DNA of 64,000 nt. Source: Hyaloraphidium curvatum (taxonomy: Eukaryota; Monoblepharomycota; Hyaloraphidiomycetes; Hyaloraphidiales; Hyaloraphidiaceae). The stretch covers positions 1,440,501 through 1,504,500 of the forward strand of contig JAIVFI010000001.1 in NCBI GenBank assembly GCA_025558095.1. The letters run 5' to 3'. Shown here piece by piece: positions 1-44,397 of the stretch. A program made the translations under genes and the position numbers. Positions within the stretch are counted from its first letter, which is position 1. Each line of letters starts with the position of its first letter. The notes under the pieces are model-generated. The model searched no databases. It had not been told where the DNA came from and worked only from the letters and a program-made list of their open reading frames with translations.

Positions 1-2763
1 TTCCCGCACGTGCTCCACGCCCACACCCCGGGCCGAGGTTCGAAGACCAAGCATGGCGTCCAAGGGGCCCGCCGTGAGGTTGAGTGAAGACAGGTAAGCC
101 GCCGAGGCCACCTTCTCCGATGACAGAAGCCCCATCCCCGAGTAGTGCAGACCCAAGAATACCTGCTCCCGCACAGTCCGACCCTCCACCGACAGCGGAT
201 CCAGATCCTCGGCCCGATCTCCCAGCAAGCGCAAGAAGGTGGTGAAAAGCGCGTTGTCAAGACGTCGAGCAAAGGGTTGGGTAACCGAGGGGGGGAGAAT
301 GCGGAGCCAAAACGAGAAGAGCTGGGTCACACAGAGACGGAGGAGGGAGTACAGGCCCTGGAGGGAGGGGATGTCGGCCGGCATGGCGTAGCCGAGCGCG
401 GCGCGCTCGATTTCATCGAGAAGAGCGGCAATGGAGTCGATCTTGGCCGCGAGGAACGACTCCACATAGGCAGGGGTGCCGACCGGGGCACCTACCACCT
501 TGAGGCCGCACGAGCGAGCGAAGTCAGGCGAGCCCGGGGCCGACGCCGTGGCATGCACCTCGGGGTCGGCCTCGTGAGGCGGGAAGCCAGCGACGCGGAT
601 GTTGTGGGCCGCACCGGCCGCGCGCACCCGCTCCAGCACGGCCGGGTTCGTCGAGAGCGAAAGCAGGTAGCTCTTGTCCGGGCGGTGGGTCATGCCGAGG
701 GAAGAAAGGCCGTCACGCACCTCTCCCAGGACGGCCATGACCGAGTCCAGCGGCCCGACCACGGTGAGGTCGTCGAGGTACCCAAGGATGAGGCAGTCGG
801 GGTGCCCAGAGCGGATGGGCCGCAGCATGCGGCTCATGGCGCAGGAGAAGATGGCAGACGACAGCGGGTCGCCCTGGATGTTGCCCTCGTACATGGTGAT
901 CCGGAAAAGGAGCTCCGCCGAGCGCCGGTCGCGGAAGTAGGCGTGGGAAGGGCGCGAGTAAACGAGGTTGTAGTACGGGATAAGCTGAGGCACCTGGCGG
1001 ACCACCTCGCGCGCGAAGAGGCGGCGCAGCGTATTGAAGGCGTTCCTAGAGTCGACCTTCATGACGACGTGGTCGGGGAAGGCCGCCAGCCACGCGTTCA
1101 CCGCGTGGGCGGTCGCCTCCGCGCCCCCGTCCACCCCGTGACCCAGGTCCTCCTGCTGTTGGAGCTTCCTCAGAAGAGCCTTGTGCCGCACGGCCAGGTA
1201 CGAGCCCGCGAGCCGCATGATGCCCTCCATAATGCCAATCGGCCGGAGCCCCCCCTCCGGCTTGAGCAGAGGGACGAGGATTTGATCCGTGAGGAGCGGC
1301 CGGAGCATGGGGGTGTCGAGTCGGCCAGTGCACACGCCGTGCACCATGGCCGCCAGCGGGCGGAGCTTCCGCCGCGTCGCGTCGTTCTCGCAGTTGTGCA
1401 CGATGAAAAGTTTGGCCATGCTGAAACCCGACATGCCGGCCCCCACGCCGTCCTTCTTCCGGCGCAACCGGGCCCAGATGTCCTCCAGGAAAGCCGCGTC
1501 CGTGTAGGCAGGGCAGGGCGCGGGCGCGTTGGGGGGCAGAGACAGCCGACACAGCGGCTCTCCCTCCCGCGGCCCCGGGTACAGCTCCTCCAGTTCCGCC
1601 TGAAGCGTGGGCGTGAAGCCAGCCGGAACGGCCTCCCCCGAGAGGGCCGCGGACGCAGCACCAGGAGCGCCCTTCAAGGCGGCAAGCACGATGGACTTGA
1701 AGAGCTGGTAGTTGAGCGGCCGCAGCCCGTCCCGCCGCGCGCCCCGGTTGACCTGACGGGCGGCGAAGTAGTTCTGCTCGTACATGTAGTCCCCCGACAT
1801 GACGTAGCCGCCAAACGCAAGGTAGGCGGTGAGAGTGCGGTGCAGGTCGGTTTCCGGTGCCGCCGGGTCCTCGTAGGCCCGTTGGAAAGACTCGCTGGCC
1901 CGGAAGGCGAGCGTGCTCCAGGTGGTGGTCCGGTAGCGGTGCTTCAGCGGCTCCGGCGGCGGCGCCCCCGCGCCCCCGCCCGGCGGCGGATCAGGCCCGG
2001 GACCCCCGGGTGGACCACCGTCGCCCGGGTCGCCCGGATCACCGCCGTTGCCGTGCCCGCCAGCCGCGGCGTTGCCGCCCGGCGCGCCGTCGCCGCCTGG
2101 GGGATCACCGCCGTCCGGGGCGGCACGCGCCGCCGCCGCCGCCGCCGCCAGCGCCGCCCGTTGCGCCTGGCCGTCCTGCGGGGCGTCGGCCGCAACCCGG
2201 GCGGCCGCAAGGGCCGCCATCAGCGCGGGCGCGGGTGGCGAAGCACGGGGAGATGCCGACGATGCCGCTGGTGACGCCGGTCCCTCCGCGCGTCCCGTGG
2301 CAGCCGCCCGCTCGGCACGCACGCGGTCGAGGAACTCGACGAGATCGGGTGGAAGCGAAGCTAAAGAGACGCCGAGTGGCGGGTTAGCTGCGTCCGGGTT
2401 GCACGAGGTGTGCTGTCCAGAAACACCGGCACCAGAGGCGTTTGCGGCGTAGGGACGCCGGCAACCCCCGCACCGCGCTAGCCCCATGGCGCGCAACGCA
2501 TCGGCAGACAGGCGCTGCATCGCCAACCAGTGCTCCGGGCTCCGTGTGACCCGAAGATGACCGTCCCGTTTGTTTTTGTTTGGAGTTGGCTGGAAGCGGC
2601 AACCATCAACCGGGCACGCATGGAGGCCGGGTTCAGCAGGCGCCTCCGCCATCGGCACATCGCCGTTGATGCAAGATTGGTGATGATGAGATAGAGCTCC
2701 GATGTTGGCGAAAGCTGCCGCGCAGCGGTGGCAGCTGTAAGGCAGGAGCGGCGTGCGGCTCAT
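1..2763 (-). mobile_element. Non-LTR retrotransposon ORF2: zinc-finger reverse transcriptase (partial)
   Basis: The frame is open from an ATG at 2763 to the left edge, giving about 920 codons with no stop; the 3' end lies outside the window. It encodes a reverse transcriptase. Three C2H2/C2HC-type fingers occupy about residues 11-31, 50-78 and 98-121, followed by an Ala/Gly/Pro-rich linker. The RT core shows KPEGGLRPIGI, then VDSRNAFN (motif A Asp about residue 571), EGNIQGDPLSSAIF (motif B) and GYLDDLTVVG (motif C Asp pair about 664-665). After the core comes the GMGLLSS...AAYLSSL thumb-type segment common in R2-like and related LINE RTs. Fingers before an RT fit site-specific R2/NeSL-like elements; the expected C-terminal endonuclease would be outside the window. 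Its ATG overlaps the stop of the upstream ORF (ATGA). No disabling stop is seen, so the visible part may be young. The family assignment is from motifs only. Confidence 0.88.
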
Positions 2764-3611
2764 GGCGAATACGGTGGCGGCGGCGATGCCGGTGTCCCGC
2801 CGCCAGGATCAGCTACCGCGGACGGTGCCTTGTCCGACGAGATCTCCCAATCGTCGAGCGCATGTGTCCGCATCCAAACCTCCTGTGACTCGGTCAGGTC
2901 GCCCCCCGCCCTGTGCCAGGCCGCAAGCGCCGACCACGCGTCACCGATAGCATCACGGCCGCCGTCATCGAGGAGCTCGGAACCTGGCCATTCGAGGTGC
3001 GCCGGCGAACCGGGCTCCGTGTGAGCATACCAAGGAGGCAAGGTGCGCGTCGGAGTGGATACTTCCGAGGAGCTCTGCCCCCCCCCGGCCATTGGTGCCG
3101 GCGGCGTGCCGGGGGTTGTGCGGGGCGGCGCAGGCGGCAGCTGCAAGCTCGGCACGGCGGTTGCAGCTGGGGTTTCCCACGGAGGATGGCCTGGGTGCGC
3201 CGAGAGCATGGAAGCGGCCGAAGCCGGGGCATCAGCGATCAAGATCTGCGATGACGAGGAGGGAGATACTTCCGAGCATGCCGCCCCTTTCCCCCCCGCT
3301 GGTGCCGGCAAGCGGGAGGAGCCGCGGGGCGGCGTGGGCAGAGTGTGACCCTCGGCCAAGCTAGGCACGGCATTTGGCCGAGGGGCCCCGGGGGACGCGG
3401 GGTCAATGTCGGAAGTCTCCCCTGCTGCCGCGAACGGCCTCGGAACTCGGTGAGACGTTGTAGATAGTGGTAGTTGGCGTACCGGTGAAGACTGCAAAAC
3501 AGCAAAAGATGGAGGGGCTGACCGCGCCCGGGAGGTATCCGGACGAGCTCGGCGCCGAGAAGAGCAGCCCACTACTCGGCGTTGCCACTTGCTTGGTGGT
3601 GTTTTAGGCAT
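2760..3611 (-). CDS. Proline/serine-rich ORF1 of the retrotransposon (283 aa)
   Basis: This ORF starts at an ATG at 3611 and ends in a TGA sharing bases with the ORF2 start (ATGA, 2760-2763). The protein is rich in Pro, Ser and Ala, has a basic N-terminus, and has no recognisable domain. It contains two related segments, one near PAPAGGKGAACSEVS and one near PAPMAGGGQSSSEVS, suggesting an internal duplication. In non-LTR elements the first ORF usually encodes a nucleic-acid-binding chaperone; no such fold can be named here. Position, strand and the coupled junction make it part of the same element as the RT. Alternatively it could be a translated linker with no function. Confidence 0.55.
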   Translation of the reverse strand: MPKTPPSKWQRRVVGCSSRRRARPDTSRARSAPPSFAVLQSSPVRQLPLSTTSHRVPRPFAAAGETSDIDPASPGAPRPNAVPSLAEGHTLPTPPRGSSRLPAPAGGKGAACSEVSPSSSSQILIADAPASAASMLSAHPGHPPWETPAATAVPSLQLPPAPPRTTPGTPPAPMAGGGQSSSEVSTPTRTLPPWYAHTEPGSPAHLEWPGSELLDDGGRDAIGDAWSALAAWHRAGGDLTESQEVWMRTHALDDWEISSDKAPSAVADPGGGTPASPPPPYSP

Positions 3612-3885
3612 TCAAGGACGGTGAGCCAGGAGCCGGCAGCAGGGATCCGGTTGACGTGGAGGCGGCCTTGGCCTGGGGGGAGCCGAGCTTGCGAACGGCC
3701 GCCTTGGCCTTCCGTTCCGCTTTGGCGGATTTGACGTCGATTTGCTGATACGGCTTGGCAACCTTGTCCGGGTTTGTCCCTGCCACATCCTCCACGGGAC
3801 GGCCCTTGCCTGCGTGCTTGGGGCCTGGGGCCATCGTAGGATCACCAACCGCGGATGCCCCAGCGGCCTCATCGGCCGTGTGCAT
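3604..3885 (-). CDS. Small basic ORF upstream of ORF1 (93 aa)
   Basis: The ORF has an ATG at 3885 and a TAA at 3606-3604, and overlaps the ORF1 start by 8 nt. The product is Lys/Ala-rich (for example KSAKAERKAKAAVRKLG), probably partly helical and unstructured elsewhere, with no family recognised. The two successive overlaps (this ORF to ORF1, ORF1 to ORF2) suggest a translationally coupled set on one transcript. It may also be the 3' portion of a longer spliced ORF1. It begins 373 nt after the Fanzor stop on the same strand. Confidence 0.4.
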   Translation of the reverse strand: MHTADEAAGASAVGDPTMAPGPKHAGKGRPVEDVAGTNPDKVAKPYQQIDVKSAKAERKAKAAVRKLGSPQAKAASTSTGSLLPAPGSPSLNA

Positions 3886-4258
3886 GTCTTCGCTTGGTGC
3901 CTCCGAGTTCCAGAATGAACGGGAGCCTCTAAGAAACCAACAACTAAGCCAACCACAATACCTCCCGGCATCCTGCTCGTACTACGGCGATTGGTTACGC
4001 CGACTCCGGAGCAATGAACCCTACCTCCATTTGTTTTGGTTCCTGCTCCCGCCCGCCGGGGTCTTCTCAGTATCACTGATCGCCCGGAGAAACCGAGCCC
4101 GCGGATAGATGCCCCGCCCGATCAAAACATCATTGCATAGCTCAGTCGGGATCGGATCGGCCACGACCCTTGCTTTCGAGAGCGAACTCAAGATCGCAAG
4201 AGTTGACCGTTGAGCGGGATCGTCACACACACAGGAGTCGTTGGAGGGCCAAAAGACC
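3886..4258 (-). other. Gap between Fanzor stop and retrotransposon ORFs; candidate guide-RNA/3' UTR
   Basis: No conserved ORF lies here once the Fanzor intron is removed; the unspliced Fanzor frame stays open through to 4021 but resembles nothing. In TnpB and Fanzor loci the guide (omega/fRNA) is made from the 3' end of the nuclease gene and the sequence just beyond it, so this is where such an RNA would be expected. A short alternating TG run and GC-rich potential stems are visible. No terminal inverted repeat could be identified by eye. Confidence 0.3.
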
Positions 4259-7200
4259 CTAGTTGACGATGACACCCGCGCTCGCCGGATCGCGTCCCTC
4301 GAAGTTGGCCCTCCGCGTCGAGTAGAACACGGGAGGCCTGCCTCCGTGGAGGATCTCCGACAAGGCAATGGTGCGGATGTTGGTGGCAGCCATGACGTCC
4401 CTGCGGCCGAAGTGTCAGGAGCTGCGTAACGAGAACCCAAGGCAACGAACCGATTCCAGCACTTGATCAAACAATCCGGATTTCTGCAATCCTTGATCTG
4501 GTAGTGCCCGTTCTTCGGGTGTTGTTTGCCGACCCTTTCCCAGCATGCCGCGCAGATCTGCGACGTCATGTCTTCCTCCACGTCCTCGGTGACCGTGACG
4601 CTGCGGCGGCGCAGGATGCGCTTCAGCCACGCCAGTGCCGACCCTGGCGTCGTTACGCCGCCGCGCATGTTGTGACGGAACCTGGCCTTGCCGAACGCAA
4701 GTATAAGGCGCTCCGCTTCGACGCCGCAGCCCTTGATGACCTTCTCGGCAACGGCTTCCTGCGCGGTGTGCTTGCCGATGTACCGGTCGAACCGAGACCG
4801 CCGGTGGACCTTTGTCCCGTAGAAGCCGACGATCGTGGAGAGGTGCTTGAGACAGTGGTGGATGTACAGCTTGGTGTCCGCGACCGTGGAGGCCTTGGCG
4901 ACGGGCGTGTCGCGCTCGATCTCGAGGATGGACGGGTGCCGCTTCTTGCGCTGGTTTGCTTTCCACGTGTTGTTCTTGTACCGGGCGAGGTGGTAGTACT
5001 CGCCCGCGGAGATGCTGACGGCCTTGCTGTTGCCGTGGTGCTTGTCGTCCCCCGGCGTCGAGAGGCCCGTCGAAACCGTGAGGATGGCTGTGCTGCCGGG
5101 GTCGAGCCCGGCAACGGACATGCCGGGGATCTTGATGTCGGAGAACGACGTGCCGGGCTGCTCCTCTGACGGCTTCCGCACGCGAACCGTGATCGAGGCC
5201 TGCACGGCGTTGGTGGAGAAGGAGTAGTCGAAGTGCCTCGACAGGTTCTTGGCGCCGCCGGTGTTGACCTTCTCCGGCCGGAAGAACATGCGCCACCAGT
5301 GCTCCGGATCCTCGGCTTCCGCGGCGAGGTAGTCGGCCAGCGAGGTGGGCTCCTGGCCGAGCCGCCGCTGCGCCACCTGGAGGAGCTGGTGAAGAGCGAT
5401 GCGGTCGATGAGGATGTGCTTGGCTTCGGTCGAGAAGCGCGGGAGGACGTTGAAAGGCTTCACGAGCTTGTGGTTGTAGGGAAAGTTGCGGAGAGCGAAC
5501 TTCCTCTCGCTCTTGCTTAAGTTCTCCGTCCACTGCACTAGCTTCTTGCGCAGCTCCTCGTGCTCCCGCTGGATGCGGAACAGGACGTCGAAGAACCTCT
5601 GCCAGTGGTACGCTACCCAGTACGCGTTGAGGTAGAGACCCTTGAGCAGGTCGTCGCGCAGTTCGGTGTAGACGTCGCGGCAGATCTCCAGGAGCAGCGG
5701 GTCGGTCGTGACCTTGTCGTAGAGCTCGTTGTTAGGCAGCGTGAAGGGTCGGTTCGTGTTGGCGGGGTGCTCCCTCGGATCCCAGAACTTCAGGCTGTTG
5801 ACAAAGTGGGTCGCGATGGCCGTGGTTTCACCCTTGGTGAGCGTACGGCCCTGGTTTGGTTGCTGGGGGCCAAAACGACCGTGCTTGTGCAGCCGGATGC
5901 GAATCCTGCAGATCGTCCACGCGCGCACCCGATCGTGCAGGTTTTCCTTCACCGAGTTCATGGCAGCCGTCACGTAGCCTTGCGAAGCGGTCCGCATGAT
6001 CTGGCCGAGGCCAATCCGTGAGGTCCGCTTGTAACCATGACGAGCAGCTCGTTTGACGCAGCCCAGCCATTCCGTGTCGCGGAACGTGTTCAGAAGCGGC
6101 ACCAGAGTATCGGCGTGGTCTTCGTCGCCGTCGAGTGGCGCCGCCACGGCGAAGAAGGCGTTCAGGCCGAGGCTCATGTCCAGGTGAGGGTACCGAAGGT
6201 CCCCTCCCAGTAGCCGCAAGTCGCGCACGTACTTGAAGAAGAGGTCCATGAACAGAGACTTTTCGAACGAAAGCTTCGTGAACCGCCCGATGGCATCCTC
6301 GATGACCTCGTAGAGCGTGGCAGCTAGTTCCTCCTCTGGGCTCGCGGGTTCCCGCGCCGTCCGGTCCCCATACCTCAAGAACTTTTGGAATGCCATAACA
6401 ACGGTCCTCTGGGCAGACTGCGGGCCCATGAGCTCGTCCAGCGCCTCCTTGGGCGTGAGCTTCTTCAGATCGTTGATGTTGAACACGCAGGCCCCGGCGG
6501 TAACCTTCGAGTGACCCCTTTGTCCGCAGCCGTTGGCGCTCGTGTGGCACGCAGACATGTAGTGCACGTGCTCCTTGGCCCGGTGCTCAAACGATCCGCA
6601 CTGCGAACAGTACAGAGGCTCTACCCCGCCGTGCGCCGCGCGCGTGTGGCCCAGCGAGCCGCAGTGAACGAGGAAAGGCCGGCAACCGTTGGGCTCCTCT
6701 GCGGAAACGAAGCTATGCTTGTGCTCGAGCACGTGGTCCTCGTACGAGATCAGGGGGAACCACGAGTACAGCACGTTCTCGGACAGGAAGCCATTTGCGA
6801 CCATCTCCCACAGTTCCTCCTTTGAACGCGACGCCCAGATCCTCCCGGTGCACACGAGGGCGTCGCAAGGATGCGCGTGGGCGATGTCGCCATGGTCAAG
6901 CTCGCCACACGTGCCGCAGACCGAGTGGAAATCTTCGTCGTGGTCGAGCGTGTTGAGCGGGTCGCAGTGCGGGCACATGAAAGGCATGCGGGGATCGGGC
7001 CGCTTCAGATGTTCCTTGGCGTTGTGGTAGACGCTCCCGCATGGAAATAACTGGCAGCCGCTCCCGTCGCCGTGACCGGTATCCCAATGATCAGTGTTTC
7101 CGCAAAGCAGGGCGGGGCAACCGGTGGGCACGTTGGCCTGCTCCAGGTGGGCGGAGTACTCCGGCGGCAGGGCCGCCTGTGCGGCGGCGGCGGCGGCATC

Positions 7201-7551
7201 GTAGCCCTTCTTCTTCGGCTTCTTCGGTGGCGGAGGCTCTGCCGCGGCGCCCTCGCCGTCCGACAAGGGAGGAGACCGTGCCCGCTCCTTGCCTTTTGGC
7301 GTTGCCTTGGGCTGCTGCTTCTTTGTTGTTGACTTCTTGGGCACCGACTTCGTTGGCGGCGCGGAGTCCGAGTCGTCCCCCCGGACTCGGAATCGGACGA
7401 CTCGTCGAGCGGAAGCTGTGCCGTGACGTCGATCTCTGTCCTCCTTGGCTATTCCTCGAGCTGGTCGCTTCTTCGCCGGGTCCTTTGACGACCCTTTGCC
7501 CGCATCGCTGTCAGATTCCTTATCCGGAGTCCGTCTCCTCTTGGGCCCCAT
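4259..7551 (-). CDS. Fanzor nuclease (eukaryotic TnpB-like, RuvC) with N-terminal zinc-knuckle array
   Basis: Exons are 4451-7551 and 4259-4400 (complement), joined across a 50-nt GT-AG intron, giving 1080 aa. The start is the ATG at 7551 (MGPKRRRTPDK, a likely nuclear localisation signal); the frame is open further upstream, but only from a TTG. Domains: a basic disordered tail (1-130), six zinc-knuckle-like modules (145-355), a large helical middle, then the split RuvC nuclease. RuvC-I is GLDPGS (Asp about 817). The RuvC-II region is LAFGKARF, as in Fanzors, with acidic residues before TSQICAAC (about 992-993) placed like the family's relocated Glu. A CX2C...CX4C zinc ribbon follows, then RuvC-III WNRDVMAATNI (Asp about 1035), which exists only after splicing. 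All catalytic elements appear intact. Fanzors are RNA-guided DNA nucleases carried by eukaryotic transposons. A retrotransposon lies directly downstream on the same strand. Confidence 0.93.
4401..4450 (-). other. Intron within the Fanzor RuvC-III motif
   Basis: The 50-nt intron begins GTTCGT and ends CGGCCGCAG on the minus strand, with a CTGAC branch-like site about 17 nt before the acceptor. It splits the Arg codon of the WNRD motif. Splicing yields the canonical D-V-x-A-A-x-N-I sequence. Retention shifts the frame by 2 and gives an unrelated tail. Confidence 0.9.
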
Positions 7552-8033
7552 GTCACTGCTATTGCAAACAATGTTAGAGCTCGATTGATCCTCGTCGACG
7601 GCCGAGGAAACGGACCTCGATGCGGTGACTTGGGCAGGGGTCGAGGTCGGAGGCAAAGGCGGCTCTAGTCACCAGCGTCCTGGAGGAGGTGCGAAGGAAC
7701 GAGGGCGAGGTCAGCATCGCGCACTTCGCGAACCGTGTACTTGCGGCCCACCTAGACCCGGCTGGTGCAGTGGATGGCCATGCGGCCGGCGAGGCGGACT
7801 CGGACTCGGCACCCGAATGCCATGCCGGCGGAGAGCGAAGCGGGCGCAGACTACCGACGTCTGAAAGAAAGAAGGTCAGCGGCTTCGTCGGAGGCAATCC
7901 CGAGTGGAGCTCACCAACGAGCTGCAGGAATTGTGAATGAGGTTGTGCTGACCACGGGCTCGCCTGGCTCGAGCACGGATCCCCACCGCGAATCCCGTCA
8001 ATCCTTGCACTCCCGGTTTCTTGAGGCCGGCAC
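7552..8033. other. Intergenic region between divergent Fanzor and orphan gene
   Basis: This 482-nt stretch holds the presumed 5' regions of two divergent genes. A short open extension of the Fanzor frame reaches 7656 without an ATG. I see no TATA box, transposon end or RNA gene. Confidence 0.5.
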
Positions 8034-8835
8034 ATGGCTTTTCCCCTGGCATTGGCCGGTCCTCGGGATTTTCTTTCCATAGACCACTTCATTCGGGTGC
8101 GTTGGGGCGCCCTGGTCTACGATCCCACCGTGCACGGGACTGTGCACAACTTTCTTCAAAACTTTGGCGTCTTCGGCCCCTTGCAGTGGGCCCTCATACC
8201 TTCTCTAGCGGTCTTCAATCCAGCATACAACCCTTTTTGGTGGCTGCCAATGCCTCCCTGGTTCCCCTTGCACGCAATGAATAGGGTGCTCCATGGAAAC
8301 ATCCTGATGGCGCAGCCCGTCGGTCCGGCAGTTAAGAAAATGAATGTGATCAATATGGGGATGAACCATGGAATGCAATCGGGATCCATCGGACGCTACT
8401 TCCAGATCGCCAACGGTGATACAACCAACATGGTCAACAGGGAGTTCCGGGCGCTTGGCAATGCCATCATGAACGGACTGGCGCCCCACATCCTTGCCAT
8501 ATTGCTCATACCTGGACATCAAGGCATGCCCGGGTTTCCGCCTGCACAGGCGGTCATCAAGGTCTTCTGCCAGAACGTCTTCAACGGACCCGCCCTCTGG
8601 CAGTGCGTAAGCAATCATCGATCGAGACCTCTACTACTGACTTCATATCTCGACCAGGACGGTTCAAAACATCGACGCAATACCCATTCTGATGCACTTT
8701 CGGTACCTGAGGATCAAGCCTCTGATCATCTACTTCATCGGCCAGAATTCCGGAACCGCCTTCCCCATGACCACCGGGCTGACGACGCTGACGATCGACG
8801 TGCGCTTCCAGCTCGGCAATTTGGTAGTTGTTTAG
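8034..8835 (+). CDS. Unknown protein, 248 aa, two exons
   Basis: Exons are 8034-8602 and 8658-8835, with a 55-nt intron starting GTGCGTAAG and ending CAG; splicing joins a Gln codon to TVQNIDAIP and keeps the frame open to TAG at 8835. The product is rich in aromatic, Pro and Met residues (PFWWLPMPPWFP, NMGMNHGMQSG) with hydrophobic stretches but no clear signal peptide. I do not recognise a family. The sharp splice sites and ordinary codon use argue for a real gene. It lies just upstream of, and on the same strand as, a fatty-acid hydroxylase. Confidence 0.6.
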
Positions 8836-8983
8836 CTTATGGTGGAGACAGAGATAGAGCGTCAGAATGATATGCAGTGGTTAGGAATTCAAGGGCCTGC
8901 TTTAGGCAGTGATATAGAACTTCTTTTGGCACAGAGTCCCGGTTGTTTTGAATACACCGTTATCTTTCGGAGGAGCTACGGCA

Positions 8984-9946
8984 ATGAACGCGACAGACGC
9001 GACGTGTCCATGTCGAGACCATACTCCCGTGACAGTGGGAGGCACGGGACTGTATCATTCCATCGTCGGGCCGGCAGTGGAAATGCTTGGCGAACCGCTG
9101 GCCTTCGTACTCCTGACCAACGCCGTGGTCAACATCGCCAACTGGCCCCTCACTTGGCTGTACCTGGCTGCGGACAAGTACGGCTGGCGGAAGGACATTC
9201 GGATCTGGCCGAACAAGTACGCCGCTGATGAGCTCGTCCGGGAGACGATACCGGACATCGGCACCGCGCTGGTTCAGAACCTCCTTGACCAAACTCTAGG
9301 TTTCTTCCTTCCGTACTACGTGTTCAAGTTCACGTTCGGGATGGACATGCTGGGACCGCTGCCGACGTGGACCACGGCGCTGTTCCAGTTCGTTGGCATC
9401 CATCTGCTCACGGACTTTCTCTTCTTCTGGATGCATCGCGCATTCCACGAAAACGAATGGTTGTGGAAGAACGTCCACAAATGGCATCACCAGTACAACT
9501 ACCCGAATGCACTAGCCCACTATCACTTCAGCAGGCAGGAGCTCATGATCCAAAGAATCTTCAAGGACTGGCCAACGCTCATCCTCTTCAAGCCCCACTT
9601 CGCCTTATGGCTGGTTTACCAAGCTTACAACGAGGTCCTAGACATTCAGATTCACTGTGGATACGACCACGGTTGGGCCTGGGCTGGCGCATGGATGGGA
9701 AGCCGTGTCAGCTGGCACCACTACCATCACAACCAACCGGGGAAGGGAGCCTACACGCTGTGGTGTGCATGGATTGATCGTCTTTTCGGGACTGCGAGGA
9801 ACTACGACACCTGGCTCGAGGCCTCGGAGGCGAGGAAGGGCACCGACGATGGGACGGTTGAAAAGATCATGTTGGAGGACGATAGCGGCATCGTCGGCAA
9901 GGGGGGGATTTACGCGAAAGATGCGAAGGCTGAAAAGTCCGAGTGA
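8984..9946 (+). CDS. Fatty acid hydroxylase / sterol desaturase family membrane oxygenase (320 aa)
   Basis: Single-exon gene starting at the ATG at 8984 (upstream in-frame starts are not ATG). It shows the three histidine boxes of the ER di-iron hydroxylase superfamily: HRAFH (HX3H), HKWHH (HX2HH) and the C-terminal HHYHH after DHGWAWAG. Hydrophobic segments lie before the first box and between boxes, as expected for an ER integral membrane enzyme. Family members hydroxylate or desaturate sterol precursors, sphingoid bases or fatty acids using O2 and a cytochrome b5-type donor; the substrate cannot be told from sequence alone. Length matches the family (about 280-340 aa). Confidence 0.88.
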   Translation: MNATDATCPCRDHTPVTVGGTGLYHSIVGPAVEMLGEPLAFVLLTNAVVNIANWPLTWLYLAADKYGWRKDIRIWPNKYAADELVRETIPDIGTALVQNLLDQTLGFFLPYYVFKFTFGMDMLGPLPTWTTALFQFVGIHLLTDFLFFWMHRAFHENEWLWKNVHKWHHQYNYPNALAHYHFSRQELMIQRIFKDWPTLILFKPHFALWLVYQAYNEVLDIQIHCGYDHGWAWAGAWMGSRVSWHHYHHNQPGKGAYTLWCAWIDRLFGTARNYDTWLEASEARKGTDDGTVEKIMLEDDSGIVGKGGIYAKDAKAEKSE

Positions 9947-10955: not shown

Positions 10956-11114
10956 GGGGGAGCAAGCTCGAGGGAAAGGGAACTCTGGCGTTTAGCTGCG
11001 TCATTATTTTGCATGATTTGAATCTGAATGGATTTTGGTGTTCGAGCTCATCATCCCTCCGACGGCGGGCTCAAAAGGGCGGTTCAATAATTTGGTGTAG
11101 GACCCTGAAAGAAG

Positions 11115-12224
11115 ATGCACGTCGTGCTCATCTCCACGCCCGTCGGGCCTCTGGGATCCGGAATGGGCGGCGGGATGGAGCTCACTGTCGCGGCTCTCGC
11201 CGAGGAGTTTGCAGCCCTCAGCTGGGACGTGACGGTCGTGGCACCGCACGGCTCGGTGCCGCTCGCCGCCCCTGTGAAGACCATTCCGGTGCCAGGAGGA
11301 CTCCAGATTCCCAGCCAAACACAGGCACGGGACACCCCCATTACGATGCCGCCCAATCCCGTCCTCGCGGCGATGCTGCAGGCGACCCGCGAGCTCCTCT
11401 TGGGACCCCGTCCGCCGTCGATCGTGATCAATACGGCCTACGACTTCCTCCCGCTGTTCTGCACCCCGTGGATGCCCCTGGTTCATTTCGTATCGATGGG
11501 ATCATTGAGTGACGGGTTCGACGCGGCGCTGGCGTCCGCACTGGCTGCGCGCCCTAGATGTGCCGCTGCTCTGACGCGGACCCAAGCCGAGACCTTCAAA
11601 TCGCTTTCGAGCCAGATCGAAGTGGTGGGCAACGGCCTGGACCTTTCTCCGTACGTTTTCAGACCGGAAGCTGGGGACCATCTGGCGTGGGTCGGCCGCA
11701 TCTCGCCGGAGAAGGCGCTCCAGGACGCCATAGCAGTCGCCGAGCTCGTGAACCTGCCCCTTGTCGTCTATGGACTGTGTCAGGACAAGGATTACTATCG
11801 ATCCTGCCTTGCAGCCCATCCGCGGGCCAGGGTGGAGCACGCAGGATTCCTTCCCGTGCCGGAGCTGGGCCGCCGGCTGGGTTCAGCAAAGGCCCTTCTC
11901 GTGACCCCGAAATGGGTCGAGGCATTTGGCAACGTCGTGGTAGAGGCGCTTGCGTGCGGCGTGCCCGTGGTGGCGTACGATCGTGGAGGGCCGGCCGAGA
12001 TCGTGACCAACCAGGTGACCGGATTCCTCGTCCCAGCCGACGATGTCCATGCGATGGCAGCAGCGGTCAAAAAGATCGGCAATATCGACAGAGTAGCATG
12101 CCGACGCGACGTAAAGACTCGTTTCACCAAGAGGGCTTTCGCATTGCGCGTATTGGACTGGGCAACCCGCGCGCTTGGAGTCGTGGCACACGAACCCGTT
12201 CCGCTGCTGCCCGTCGAGGCGTAG
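11115..12224 (+). CDS. GT4-family glycosyltransferase, bacterial-like (369 aa)
   Basis: Intronless gene from the ATG at 11115. It has a GT-B fold pattern: an N-terminal acceptor domain with MGGGMELTVAALAEEF, and a C-terminal nucleotide-sugar domain with LAWVGRISPEKAL and the GT4 signature EAFGNVVVEALACGVPVVA (EX7E), followed by GGPAEIV. Members use UDP- or GDP-sugars to glycosylate lipids, polysaccharides or small molecules. No signal peptide or membrane segment is obvious, so it is probably cytosolic. Lack of introns and bacterial-style sequence suggest horizontal acquisition. It ends 31 nt from the convergent stop of the mitochondrial carrier gene. Confidence 0.9.
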   Translation: MHVVLISTPVGPLGSGMGGGMELTVAALAEEFAALSWDVTVVAPHGSVPLAAPVKTIPVPGGLQIPSQTQARDTPITMPPNPVLAAMLQATRELLLGPRPPSIVINTAYDFLPLFCTPWMPLVHFVSMGSLSDGFDAALASALAARPRCAAALTRTQAETFKSLSSQIEVVGNGLDLSPYVFRPEAGDHLAWVGRISPEKALQDAIAVAELVNLPLVVYGLCQDKDYYRSCLAAHPRARVEHAGFLPVPELGRRLGSAKALLVTPKWVEAFGNVVVEALACGVPVVAYDRGGPAEIVTNQVTGFLVPADDVHAMAAAVKKIGNIDRVACRRDVKTRFTKRAFALRVLDWATRALGVVAHEPVPLLPVEA

Positions 12225-41918: not shown

Positions 41919-44249
41919 TCAGTGCCCCAGCAGTGGCGTCCTCTCCCCTACCGCCCCCGACCCCGCCGGCGACACCGCCTCCTCCCCCTCCTCCTCGCCC
42001 TCCGCGGCGGAAGGCAGCATCCAGAACACCACGAACACCAGCAGCCCCAGGGCGGCCGTCGCGCCGCCGACGTAGAGGAGCATCGCCGCGAACCCGGCCG
42101 TCTCGGCGAGGTGCGAGCACAGCACGGGGCCGGCGAGCATGCCGGCGCTGTAGCAGACGTTCCACATCGCGTCTGGATGGATGGGCGGGAAGAGGATGGT
42201 CAGCGGCCGTCCCCGGATCGAGCGCCAGCTGCAAAGGAACCCACACATAGTCCCGTACCCCTCCCCGCCCGCGTGCTCCCTCACGATCCCCGCGATCTCG
42301 GCGTATATCGGCGTCGAGTACGCGCTCTCCGCCGCGCCGAACGCCAGCAGCGGGAGCGCCACCCAGCCCACGGCCGCCGGCGGCGCCACCAACCCGGTCA
42401 GCGGCGCCGACAAACCAAACAGCGCCAGGCCCGCGGCCGAGAGGAACCGCCTCCCCCTCGACGACATGCGGTCGCACACGGGGCCTAGGACCAGCCGCAC
42501 GAGCGAGTTGGGCACCTCGATGGCGATGAAGAGCAGGCCGACGGTGGAGGGGGAGGCGCCGAACCGCCGGGAGAGGTGCACGGGCAGCGTGGGCTCGATG
42601 CCGCTGAAGAGGGTGGCGTCGACGGCGGAGGCGGCAAAGACGACGAGGAGCTCGGGGCGCAGGAGGAGGCGCAGCACCAGGGTGCCGACGCCGGGCTTTT
42701 CTGGCTCCGCCTCGTCGTCCCCTTCCTCGGCATCGTCTTCCTCTCCGGGGGTGCCGCCGCCCTCGTCGGCCGCACCGTCGTCGTCGGCTTCCTGGGTGCG
42801 GGGGTCGATGAAGGTGTCCGAGGTTTCGCCCACGCGCACGACGAGGTCCTTGCGCTTGCGCGATGCCGGGTCGCCGGGTGTTGCCGCGTCGTCCGCATCC
42901 TCGGCAGCAACCTCTCCAGCAAGGATGTCATCGGGTGCCGGTGTGGTGTCCTCGCCTGCTCCCTTGGTCGGCATGCCGGCGAGCACCGCCTTGTCCGCGG
43001 CCGCCTCCTTCTCCGCCTCTTCCTCCTCCGCCGCGCGCACAGCCTCCCTCCTTGCCCCCTCGAGGTCGATCACGATCCAGCACAGCAGATCCGCCACCGC
43101 CAGCCCCGTGCACACGAAGAACGGCATCCCCATGCCCCCGGCCTGGAACAGCACCCCGCCGACCACGGGCCCGAGGAGGAAGCCCGCGGTGTTGAAGACC
43201 AGCACGCGCGAGGTGGCGCCCGTCAGCGCCGAGGGTGGGTACACGTCCGCGAGGCAGGCCACGGCGACGGACCAGATGGAGGCGCCGGCGCAGCCCTGCA
43301 CGGTGCGGGCGAGGAGGAGCAGCGGGTAGGAGAACTGCGCGAAGGTGCCGAACATGAGCGTGGAGAGGGAGAGAAAGAAAAGGCCGACGAGCATGGGGGC
43401 GCGGCGGGTGCGGTACTTGTCCGAGAGGAAGCCGATGAGCGGGGAGAGGATGAGGTAGCCGAGCGAGTAGCTGGCAAAGAGCAGGCCGACCTCGCGCTCG
43501 CCGAGCTTGAGGCGGTCGACGACCAGCTCGGGGAGCACGGGCACGACGACGCCGTACACGAGCATGTCGACAAAGAGGGAGGCGGCGACGGCGGCTTCGA
43601 CAAAGATTAAAGAGCGCGTGAAGGCGGGCGCGGGGTGGCCCAGGAACAGGGAGCACGGATGCCGCGCAGGGTCGAGCTCCTCCTCGTCGGCGCCCTCCTC
43701 ATCGCCACCCTCGCCTTCTTCGCCTCCCTCGGCAGGTTCCGCGGCGACGTGGCGGCCCTCTTCAATATCTCGTTTCCGCCGTTCTTTGGCAGCGGCCGCG
43801 GCAGCCCGTGCGAGCCTCTGTGCCTCCGATCGCTTCCGCTGCTCATCCAGGACGGCCCGGGACAGAGCAGACTGCCGGCTCCCGGCGCCCAAAAGTCCCT
43901 GCCGCTCGGCATCGGGCGCCCCGAGGCTTTGGGAGCGCTGCGCCCTCGGCCGCCTTCCCAGGCTCCCATGGAACCCCCGATTGTCCCCCTTGTGTCTCTT
44001 TTCCCCCGGCAGAAACGAGTCCGCCGACGATGCACGCGCGGGAAACGCGCGTCGGGGGGCTCCGGAGGGCTGCGCCGGGGGGAGACGGGCGGGGGCGCGC
44101 CCGCGGGAGCCCAGCGAGGACGGGCCCGGCAGCGAGCGCGACGCGCCGTCCGTCGCCTGCCGCGCGATCCGCCGCGGTTCCGAAGCCACGGCAATTTCCG
44201 ATGCGGTGCTTGGAGGGGGGAATGAGGAGCTGCTGGGCAGTGAGGACAT
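41919..44249 (-). CDS. Major facilitator superfamily transporter (vesicular amine-transporter-like), about 752 aa
   Basis: Complement exons are 42245-44249 and 41919-42172, with a 72-nt intron (GTGGGT...CAG) restoring YAMWNVCYSAGMLAGP, a conserved late helix. Twelve helices are visible, with the MFS loop GFLSDKYRTRR between helices 2 and 3, and DRMSSRGRR in the second half, as in DHA1-type multidrug or VMAT-like H+ antiporters. The central cytosolic loop is very long and Asp/Glu-rich (about 42700-42950). The N-terminal 190 residues are low-complexity and may include an unrecognised intron, so the start is uncertain. It ends ERTPLLGH, resembling a dileucine vacuolar sorting motif. Confidence 0.85.
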   Translation of the reverse strand: MSSLPSSSSFPPPSTASEIAVASEPRRIARQATDGASRSLPGPSSLGSRGRAPARLPPAQPSGAPRRAFPARASSADSFLPGEKRHKGDNRGFHGSLGRRPRAQRSQSLGAPDAERQGLLGAGSRQSALSRAVLDEQRKRSEAQRLARAAAAAAKERRKRDIEEGRHVAAEPAEGGEEGEGGDEEGADEEELDPARHPCSLFLGHPAPAFTRSLIFVEAAVAASLFVDMLVYGVVVPVLPELVVDRLKLGEREVGLLFASYSLGYLILSPLIGFLSDKYRTRRAPMLVGLFFLSLSTLMFGTFAQFSYPLLLLARTVQGCAGASIWSVAVACLADVYPPSALTGATSRVLVFNTAGFLLGPVVGGVLFQAGGMGMPFFVCTGLAVADLLCWIVIDLEGARREAVRAAEEEEAEKEAAADKAVLAGMPTKGAGEDTTPAPDDILAGEVAAEDADDAATPGDPASRKRKDLVVRVGETSDTFIDPRTQEADDDGAADEGGGTPGEEDDAEEGDDEAEPEKPGVGTLVLRLLLRPELLVVFAASAVDATLFSGIEPTLPVHLSRRFGASPSTVGLLFIAIEVPNSLVRLVLGPVCDRMSSRGRRFLSAAGLALFGLSAPLTGLVAPPAAVGWVALPLLAFGAAESAYSTPIYAEIAGIVREHAGGEGYGTMCGFLCSWRSIRGRPLTILFPPIHPDAMWNVCYSAGMLAGPVLCSHLAETAGFAAMLLYVGGATAALGLLVFVVFWMLPSAAEGEEEGEEAVSPAGSGAVGERTPLLGH

Positions 44250-44397
44250 CCCGGTGTTCACACTTCAATGCGTCGGGCGGGATCGTCACTGCGCTACTTC
44301 TTGGCAGCTCTTCAGCTCGTGATGTCTATCTTCAAGTCAGCCAAAATGGCAAATCTAGTAGTGATGGCATTCTAGGCATAATGATGCCGTCGTAGGT

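Follow-up and report, generated by a model that had tools for sequence, protein, structure and literature searches.

A probable Fanzor1 nuclease gene on a TA-ended DNA transposon of Hyaloraphidium curvatum, with a LINE in the right-end tip of the element

Fanzors are eukaryotic RNA-guided DNA-cutting nucleases and relatives of CRISPR enzymes. A first-pass annotation of a 64,000-nucleotide stretch of the Hyaloraphidium curvatum genome (contig JAIVFI010000001.1, positions 1,440,501 to 1,504,500; hereafter the window) described a complete Fanzor gene with all features needed for an RNA-guided nuclease, and proposed a living system rather than a fossil. The locus raises the question of whether the gene encodes a true Fanzor, and whether this copy can still work as one. 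The features concerned, in window coordinates, are as follows.

1-3907, minus strand: part of a 5.1-kb non-LTR retrotransposon (LINE; whole element C1:1439305-1444407, L047), inserted in the right-end tip of the DNA transposon
3908-8962, minus strand: Fanzor-bearing DNA transposon of ~5.05 kb (in Fanzor orientation, left end 8962 and right end 3908)
3908-4258, minus strand: 3´ non-coding region, candidate omega-RNA scaffold, the last nucleotides of which are cut off in the window copy
4259-7551, minus strand: Fanzor1 gene by translation (exon 1 7551-4451, exon 2 4400-4259; 1080 amino acids when spliced)
4397-4399, minus strand: RuvC-III aspartate D1035
4401-4450, minus strand: Fanzor intron of 50 nt, GT-AG, within codon R1034
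4459-4554, minus strand: zinc ribbon (TNB) with C1000, C1003, C1022, C1027 and C1031 (Pfam PF07282 E=9.6e-4, below the gathering score)
4573-4575, minus strand: RuvC-II glutamate E993, at the rearranged 'Ealt' position
5092-5109, minus strand: RuvC-I motif GLDPGS with D817
6487-7119, minus strand: zinc-knuckle-like array (aa 145-355) of C-x2-6-C-x3-5-H-x3-5-H motifs
7382-7437, minus strand: shifted-frame segment, compensated +1/-1
8034-8835, plus strand: companion gene without an assigned function (exon 1 8034-8602, intron 8603-8657, exon 2 8658-8835), divergent from the Fanzor gene
8961-8962, strand not applicable: left-end TA, presumed half of a TA target duplication

A search of the genome (31.9 Mb, 55 contigs) revealed seven other Fanzor loci, which comprise one paralogue on C14 (about 41-42% identical) and six close relatives (three on C2 and one each on C7, C31 and C34). 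In the window, the Fanzor gene is spanned by a minus-strand open frame of 1215 codons (7668-4021); translation starts at the ATG at 7551 and runs to a stop codon whose last base is 4259. The coordinates, length and motifs given in the first-pass annotation all proved correct in the spliced translation. Removal of the intron restores WNRDVMAATNIRT, and exactly the same motif is present in the C14 paralogue. Between the window and C31 copies, the intron differs at 10/50 sites versus 45/2895 in the core coding sequence (p=1.3e-8). This excess divergence, together with the spliced motif common to the C14 paralogue, gives the intron good support.

The RuvC-I motif starts at residue 815, and its DPG is invariant in the C14 paralogue. 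The acidic residue anticipated near position 992 is E993, which sits in EEDMTSQICAAC in the Fanzor 'Ealt' register, with six residues between it and C1000. The hmmsearch alignment puts E993 on E541 of SpuFz1 (Spizellomyces punctatus Fanzor1, PDB 8gkh), while the canonical RuvC-II region aligns as LAFGKARF, without a glutamate. D1035, which belongs to CWNRDVMAATNI (NRD, residues 1033-1035), is placed by the same alignment on D606 of SpuFz1 and N658 of GtFz1 (Guillardia theta Fanzor1, PDB 9cer); the WNRD motif is recovered after splicing. The CX2C/CX4C ligands are present as C1000-x2-C1003 and C1022-x4-C1027, plus C1031. The catalytic residues of SpuFz1 are D383, E541 and D606 (PMC11423790, PMC10432273); its residue register was counted in the profile alignment, with the offset fixed by D606/N658. 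The placement of the catalytic triad rests on this register against the solved Fanzor1 structures. AlphaFold2 prediction of the exon-1 core from a three-sequence alignment reached a pLDDT of 42.5, and Foldseek found no match for it.

A profile built from the window protein and the C14 paralogue, searched against the PDB, returned exactly two matches, GtFz1 (3.7e-6) and SpuFz1 (0.0075), with E993 and D1035 on the catalytic E541 and D606. With a single sequence, phmmer found GtFz1 weakly (0.016), and a match to the TnpB family NF040570 was obtained for one of the two paralogues (E=1.7e-6). The pattern of Bao and Jurka, D-X(125,275)-[TS][TS]-XX-C4 zinc finger-X(5,50)-RD (PMC3627910), is present as D817, 178 residues, T996-S997-Q-I-C1000...C1027 and R1034-D1035. 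A DPG at RuvC-I and a glutamate six residues before the zinc finger separate Fanzors from most TnpBs (PMC10711439). Both the window protein and the C14 paralogue have the DPG, and the glutamate occupies the Fanzor site and is absent from the canonical one. TnpB (NCBIfam NF040570) and Cas12f share the RuvC domain and the C4 zinc ribbon with the window protein, but the glutamate of TnpB typically lies ~50 residues upstream of the zinc finger, in contrast to six here. GtFz1, the best solved relative, has the same E-x2-TSQ-x-C register, C-x4-C and WNR motif, whereas it carries N658 where the window protein has D1035; the similarity is confined to the C-terminal region, and no GtFz1 counterpart of the N-terminal zinc-knuckle-like array was aligned. 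Carriage on a eukaryotic DNA transposon, as for other Fanzor1 genes, is seen in six copies with common ends. Scans of viral contigs found no Fanzor relatives. These comparisons support the assignment of the window gene to Fanzor1, apparently with a complete D-E-D set in the right register, and the 98% core protein identity to the C31 copy, together with the significant Fanzor1 profile matches, confirms at the sequence level that the observation is far beyond chance.

A blastn comparison between the window and the other copies in the genome located the ends of the host element, which are the same in these copies, at 3908 and about 8958. Five of the six close relatives have these two ends in unrelated flanks, so that six copies, including that in the window, share them. 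In Fanzor orientation, the element has TAGTGGTGTTTTC at the left and ...TAAACGGTACTA at the right, with TA at each tip, and the terminal inverted repeats are imperfect (TAGTGGTGTTTTC versus TAGTACCGTTTAC, 9/13). TA dinucleotides at the ends are a trait of Tc1/mariner (IS630) elements. TA is found at both element ends in several copies, which suggests a TA target duplication; an empty-site search for the C31 copy returned only its own flanks. In the window copy the left TA follows an A, as it does in four others, which makes 5/5 readable copies (p about 1.6e-4 at this base composition); the left end of the C7 copy is altered. In SpuFz1, CA lies beside the left end and the TAM is CATA (PMC10432273). 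Because the A+TA at the left end recalls this arrangement, a TAM ending in ATA is predicted beside the left end of the window element, which would resemble the CATA of SpuFz1. The two systems differ in that the SpuFz1 locus is ~2.1 kb with one ORF and many ghost copies (PMC10432273), whereas the window element spans 5 kb and includes a companion gene, and a pattern search of the genome with up to two mismatches found no solo right ends ('ghosts'). No recognisable transposase was found within 3908-8962, nor any transposase with these element ends. A fatty acid hydroxylase gene (PF04116, 1.6e-21; window 8918-9946) starts very close to the left end of the element.

Fanzor1 in a mariner-like element is of an already known kind, and the details are new. 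The Fanzor1-bearing Tc/mariner elements PUl-1, PUl-4 and PGv-1 (Bao and Jurka 2013, PMC3627910) likewise have TA flanks, a transposase in some only, and extra genes beside Fanzor, but they come from other organisms, and the companion gene in the window has no match to a known family. Fanzor has been known in combination with IS630/Tc1-mariner since 2013 (PMC3627910). The C14 element (L025:1343-6884) is 5.5 kb long with ~30-bp inverted repeats and TA at its ends, and encodes an intact-looking transposase of 363 aa after removal of two short introns, with DDE residues and a DDE_3 match (E=1.1e-16). Its Fanzor looks intact, with the same motifs as the window Fanzor and all three catalytic residues; its intron is not at the window position and lies about 13 codons upstream. 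The presence of this transposase and a Fanzor within one element links the Fanzors of this genome, as a lineage, to IS630/Tc1-mariner. The C14 element also contains an extra cysteine-rich gene (2675-3394, minus strand).

The companion gene is found in the six element copies and nowhere else in the genome. It has fewer variable sites than fourfold sites, and non-synonymous changes are depleted (p=0.0009-0.004). No Pfam, PHROG or credible PDB match was found for its protein, prediction of the exon 1 structure gave a pLDDT of 36, and no relatives were present in viral contigs. A divergent extra gene beside Fanzor also occurs in the C14 element, but it is a different gene.

The N-terminal region of the window Fanzor contains five motifs by the loose rule and two by strict zinc-knuckle spacing; 0/5000 shuffles reach either count, and the C14 paralogue keeps most of the same array cysteines and histidines. 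Fanzor1 proteins have been noted up to about 800 residues (PMC10711439), and in the literature searched, 'zinc knuckle' was not found paired with Fanzor. The length of the predicted protein and its zinc-knuckle-like array, common to the C14 paralogue, appear unusual for Fanzor1. Our tentative suggestion, which we consider possible but rather unlikely, is that the window protein represents a large Fanzor1 type of its own, and that the array and the conserved companion protein form an added part of the RNA-guided machine and, for example, hold the omega-RNA or the target strand. Upstream of the array, alignment of the copies shows that ~19 aa of the disordered tail are rewritten relative to every other copy by a compensated +1/-1 pair at 7437 and 7382. 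The earlier statement that no disabling mutation is present thus holds for the core, while the frame of the tail has been altered. The N-terminal tail as a whole (window 7227-7551, the first ~115 residues) occurs in two types that are 62-79% identical in DNA, unlike the rest of the gene, which is mostly 95-99% identical between copies; this suggests exchange between element lineages.

Of the window copy and its six close relatives, only those in the window and on C31 keep the Fanzor frame uninterrupted. Frameshifts are present in the C34 copy and in two of the C2 copies, the third C2 copy is a wreck, and the C7 copy, the nearest sister of the window copy, is broken by a stop codon, carries a 30-nt duplication and has lost a zinc cysteine (C1027 -> Tyr). 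Over the core (aa 116-1080), 27 synonymous and 18 non-synonymous changes separate the window copy from the C31 copy, which correspond to dS 0.040, dN 0.008 and dN/dS 0.21 (p=3.5e-7 against neutrality); for the wrecked copy, dN/dS ratios are near 0.47. The lineage has therefore kept a working protein, and the substitution pattern supports descent of the Fanzor copies from sources under purifying selection. The private core substitutions of the window copy are T178A and G984S only, neither of which affects a catalytic or zinc residue.

In the Fanzors studied so far, the omega-RNA maps to the right end and the flank that follows serves as guide (PMC10432273). The corresponding region here comprises the 351 nt between the Fanzor stop codon and 3908. 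Among six related copies, it varies at 13/338 sites versus 36/447 fourfold sites (p=0.011, from 13 variable sites), while the 5´ intergenic region varies at 43/402 sites and the left end at 14/63 across six copies. The conservation of the 3´ region modestly fits a constrained RNA. Folding of this region in the C31 copy was no better than that of shuffles (z=-1.4 for 358 nt and -1.0 for 181 nt), and an Rfam search of the element gave no credible match and one chance hit.

It is at this end that the window copy is broken. The LINE is flanked by a ~12-bp duplication of the element tip, with about TTMCAGAATGAA as the target duplication. A pattern search located the right-end tip of the window copy, TAGTACCGTTTACAGAATG, at C1:1439284, ~5.1 kb beyond 3908. 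The LINE has thus pushed the last ~9 nt of the right end, together with a flanking duplication, to C1:1439284-1439304, outside the window. Since LINE sequence now stands in place of these ~9 nt and of the flank, we infer that the window copy cannot give rise to a correct guide junction. The claim that all features needed appear present in one gene is not supported, because the RNA half is expected at the 3´ end and the tip is split. The proposal of a living system stands in part: the protein looks competent and its lineage has been selected. Such a status is nevertheless doubtful for the window copy itself, because the RNA end is broken and an open frame alone does not demonstrate it.

The age of the LINE bears on how the open frame is to be read. 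The LINE carries a 1318-codon frame with an RVT_1 match (E=3.6e-10), and at least 25 copies in the genome are 96-100% identical to it in the RT domain, which indicates a young family. With a young family, the open Fanzor frame may only mean that decay has not yet had time to set in. Many relatives of the LINE have a full-length 1318-codon frame, so the family is probably active.

We consider it likely that the window holds a Fanzor1 on a ~5.05-kb TA-ended DNA transposon moved in trans, whose nuclease is probably still made but whose own guide junction is destroyed, such that it needs the omega-RNA of another copy. The element, without a recognisable transposase, would be mobilised in trans. 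Its right end, downstream of the stop codon, would yield an omega-RNA, the last ~15-20 nt of which would be copied from flanking DNA. Fanzor would bind this RNA and recognise, next to the left end, a TAM with ATA as its last bases, and the RuvC site (D817, E993 and D1035) would cut empty target sites, which would favour the keeping or copying of the element. In this scheme, the analysis shows the element with its ends and copy number, the register of the catalytic and zinc residues, past purifying selection, the paralogue beside an intact-looking mariner transposase, and the LINE in the right-end tip of the window copy. The omega-RNA, the TAM and the cleavage are inferred, and the nuclease of the window copy would depend on omega-RNA supplied by another copy.

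The strongest alternative is that the family was active but the window copy died when the LINE was inserted, with a frame that is open for lack of time. We give this a substantial chance, although well below an even one: a LINE of a young family in the right-end tip, the compensated frameshift in the tail and the advanced decay of the C7 sister (its stop codon, 30-nt duplication and lost cysteine) all point in this direction, whereas the frame is fully open, the splice sites are intact and the core has only the two private substitutions. In addition, a Fanzor protein can work in trans with the omega-RNA of other copies, and ghost elements are known to supply RNA (PMC10432273). Improbable by comparison is a TnpB-derived DNA-binding protein that no longer cuts and is kept for regulation; the large N-terminal zinc array could serve binding, but the window, C31 and C14 proteins all retain the full catalytic triad, and the C14 protein is only 42% identical. 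A domesticated, Fanzor-derived host gene that has left its mobile element would account for the purifying selection on the coding sequence, but this signal is that of a family copied from working masters, and the six close relatives in the genome, of which five share the element ends and lie in unrelated flanks, render it very improbable. Prokaryotic contamination carrying a TnpB, for which nothing was found in favour, is refuted by the occurrence on several contigs and by introns of spliceosomal type in three genes (Fanzor, companion and transposase), and the DPG and Ealt features typical of Fanzors and the 1.6-Mb contig with eukaryotic repeats also argue against it.

This small genome bears on the role of Fanzors in transposition, since it combines a Fanzor element with no recognisable transposase, copies in graded decay, and a second, diverged Fanzor element that brings along a mariner transposase. 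It allows one to ask directly whether Fanzor aids the persistence of the element, and whether intact copies supply RNA or protein to broken ones. The known architecture of Fanzor1 would also be widened by the zinc array and the companion gene.

With regard to the host, no match to the light-harvesting family PF00504 was found in the whole genome, which suggests that the organism is probably not photosynthetic. Host genes in the window include a group 1 glycosyltransferase (11109-12224; 1.4e-25) and an MFS transporter (41919-44261; 8e-49).
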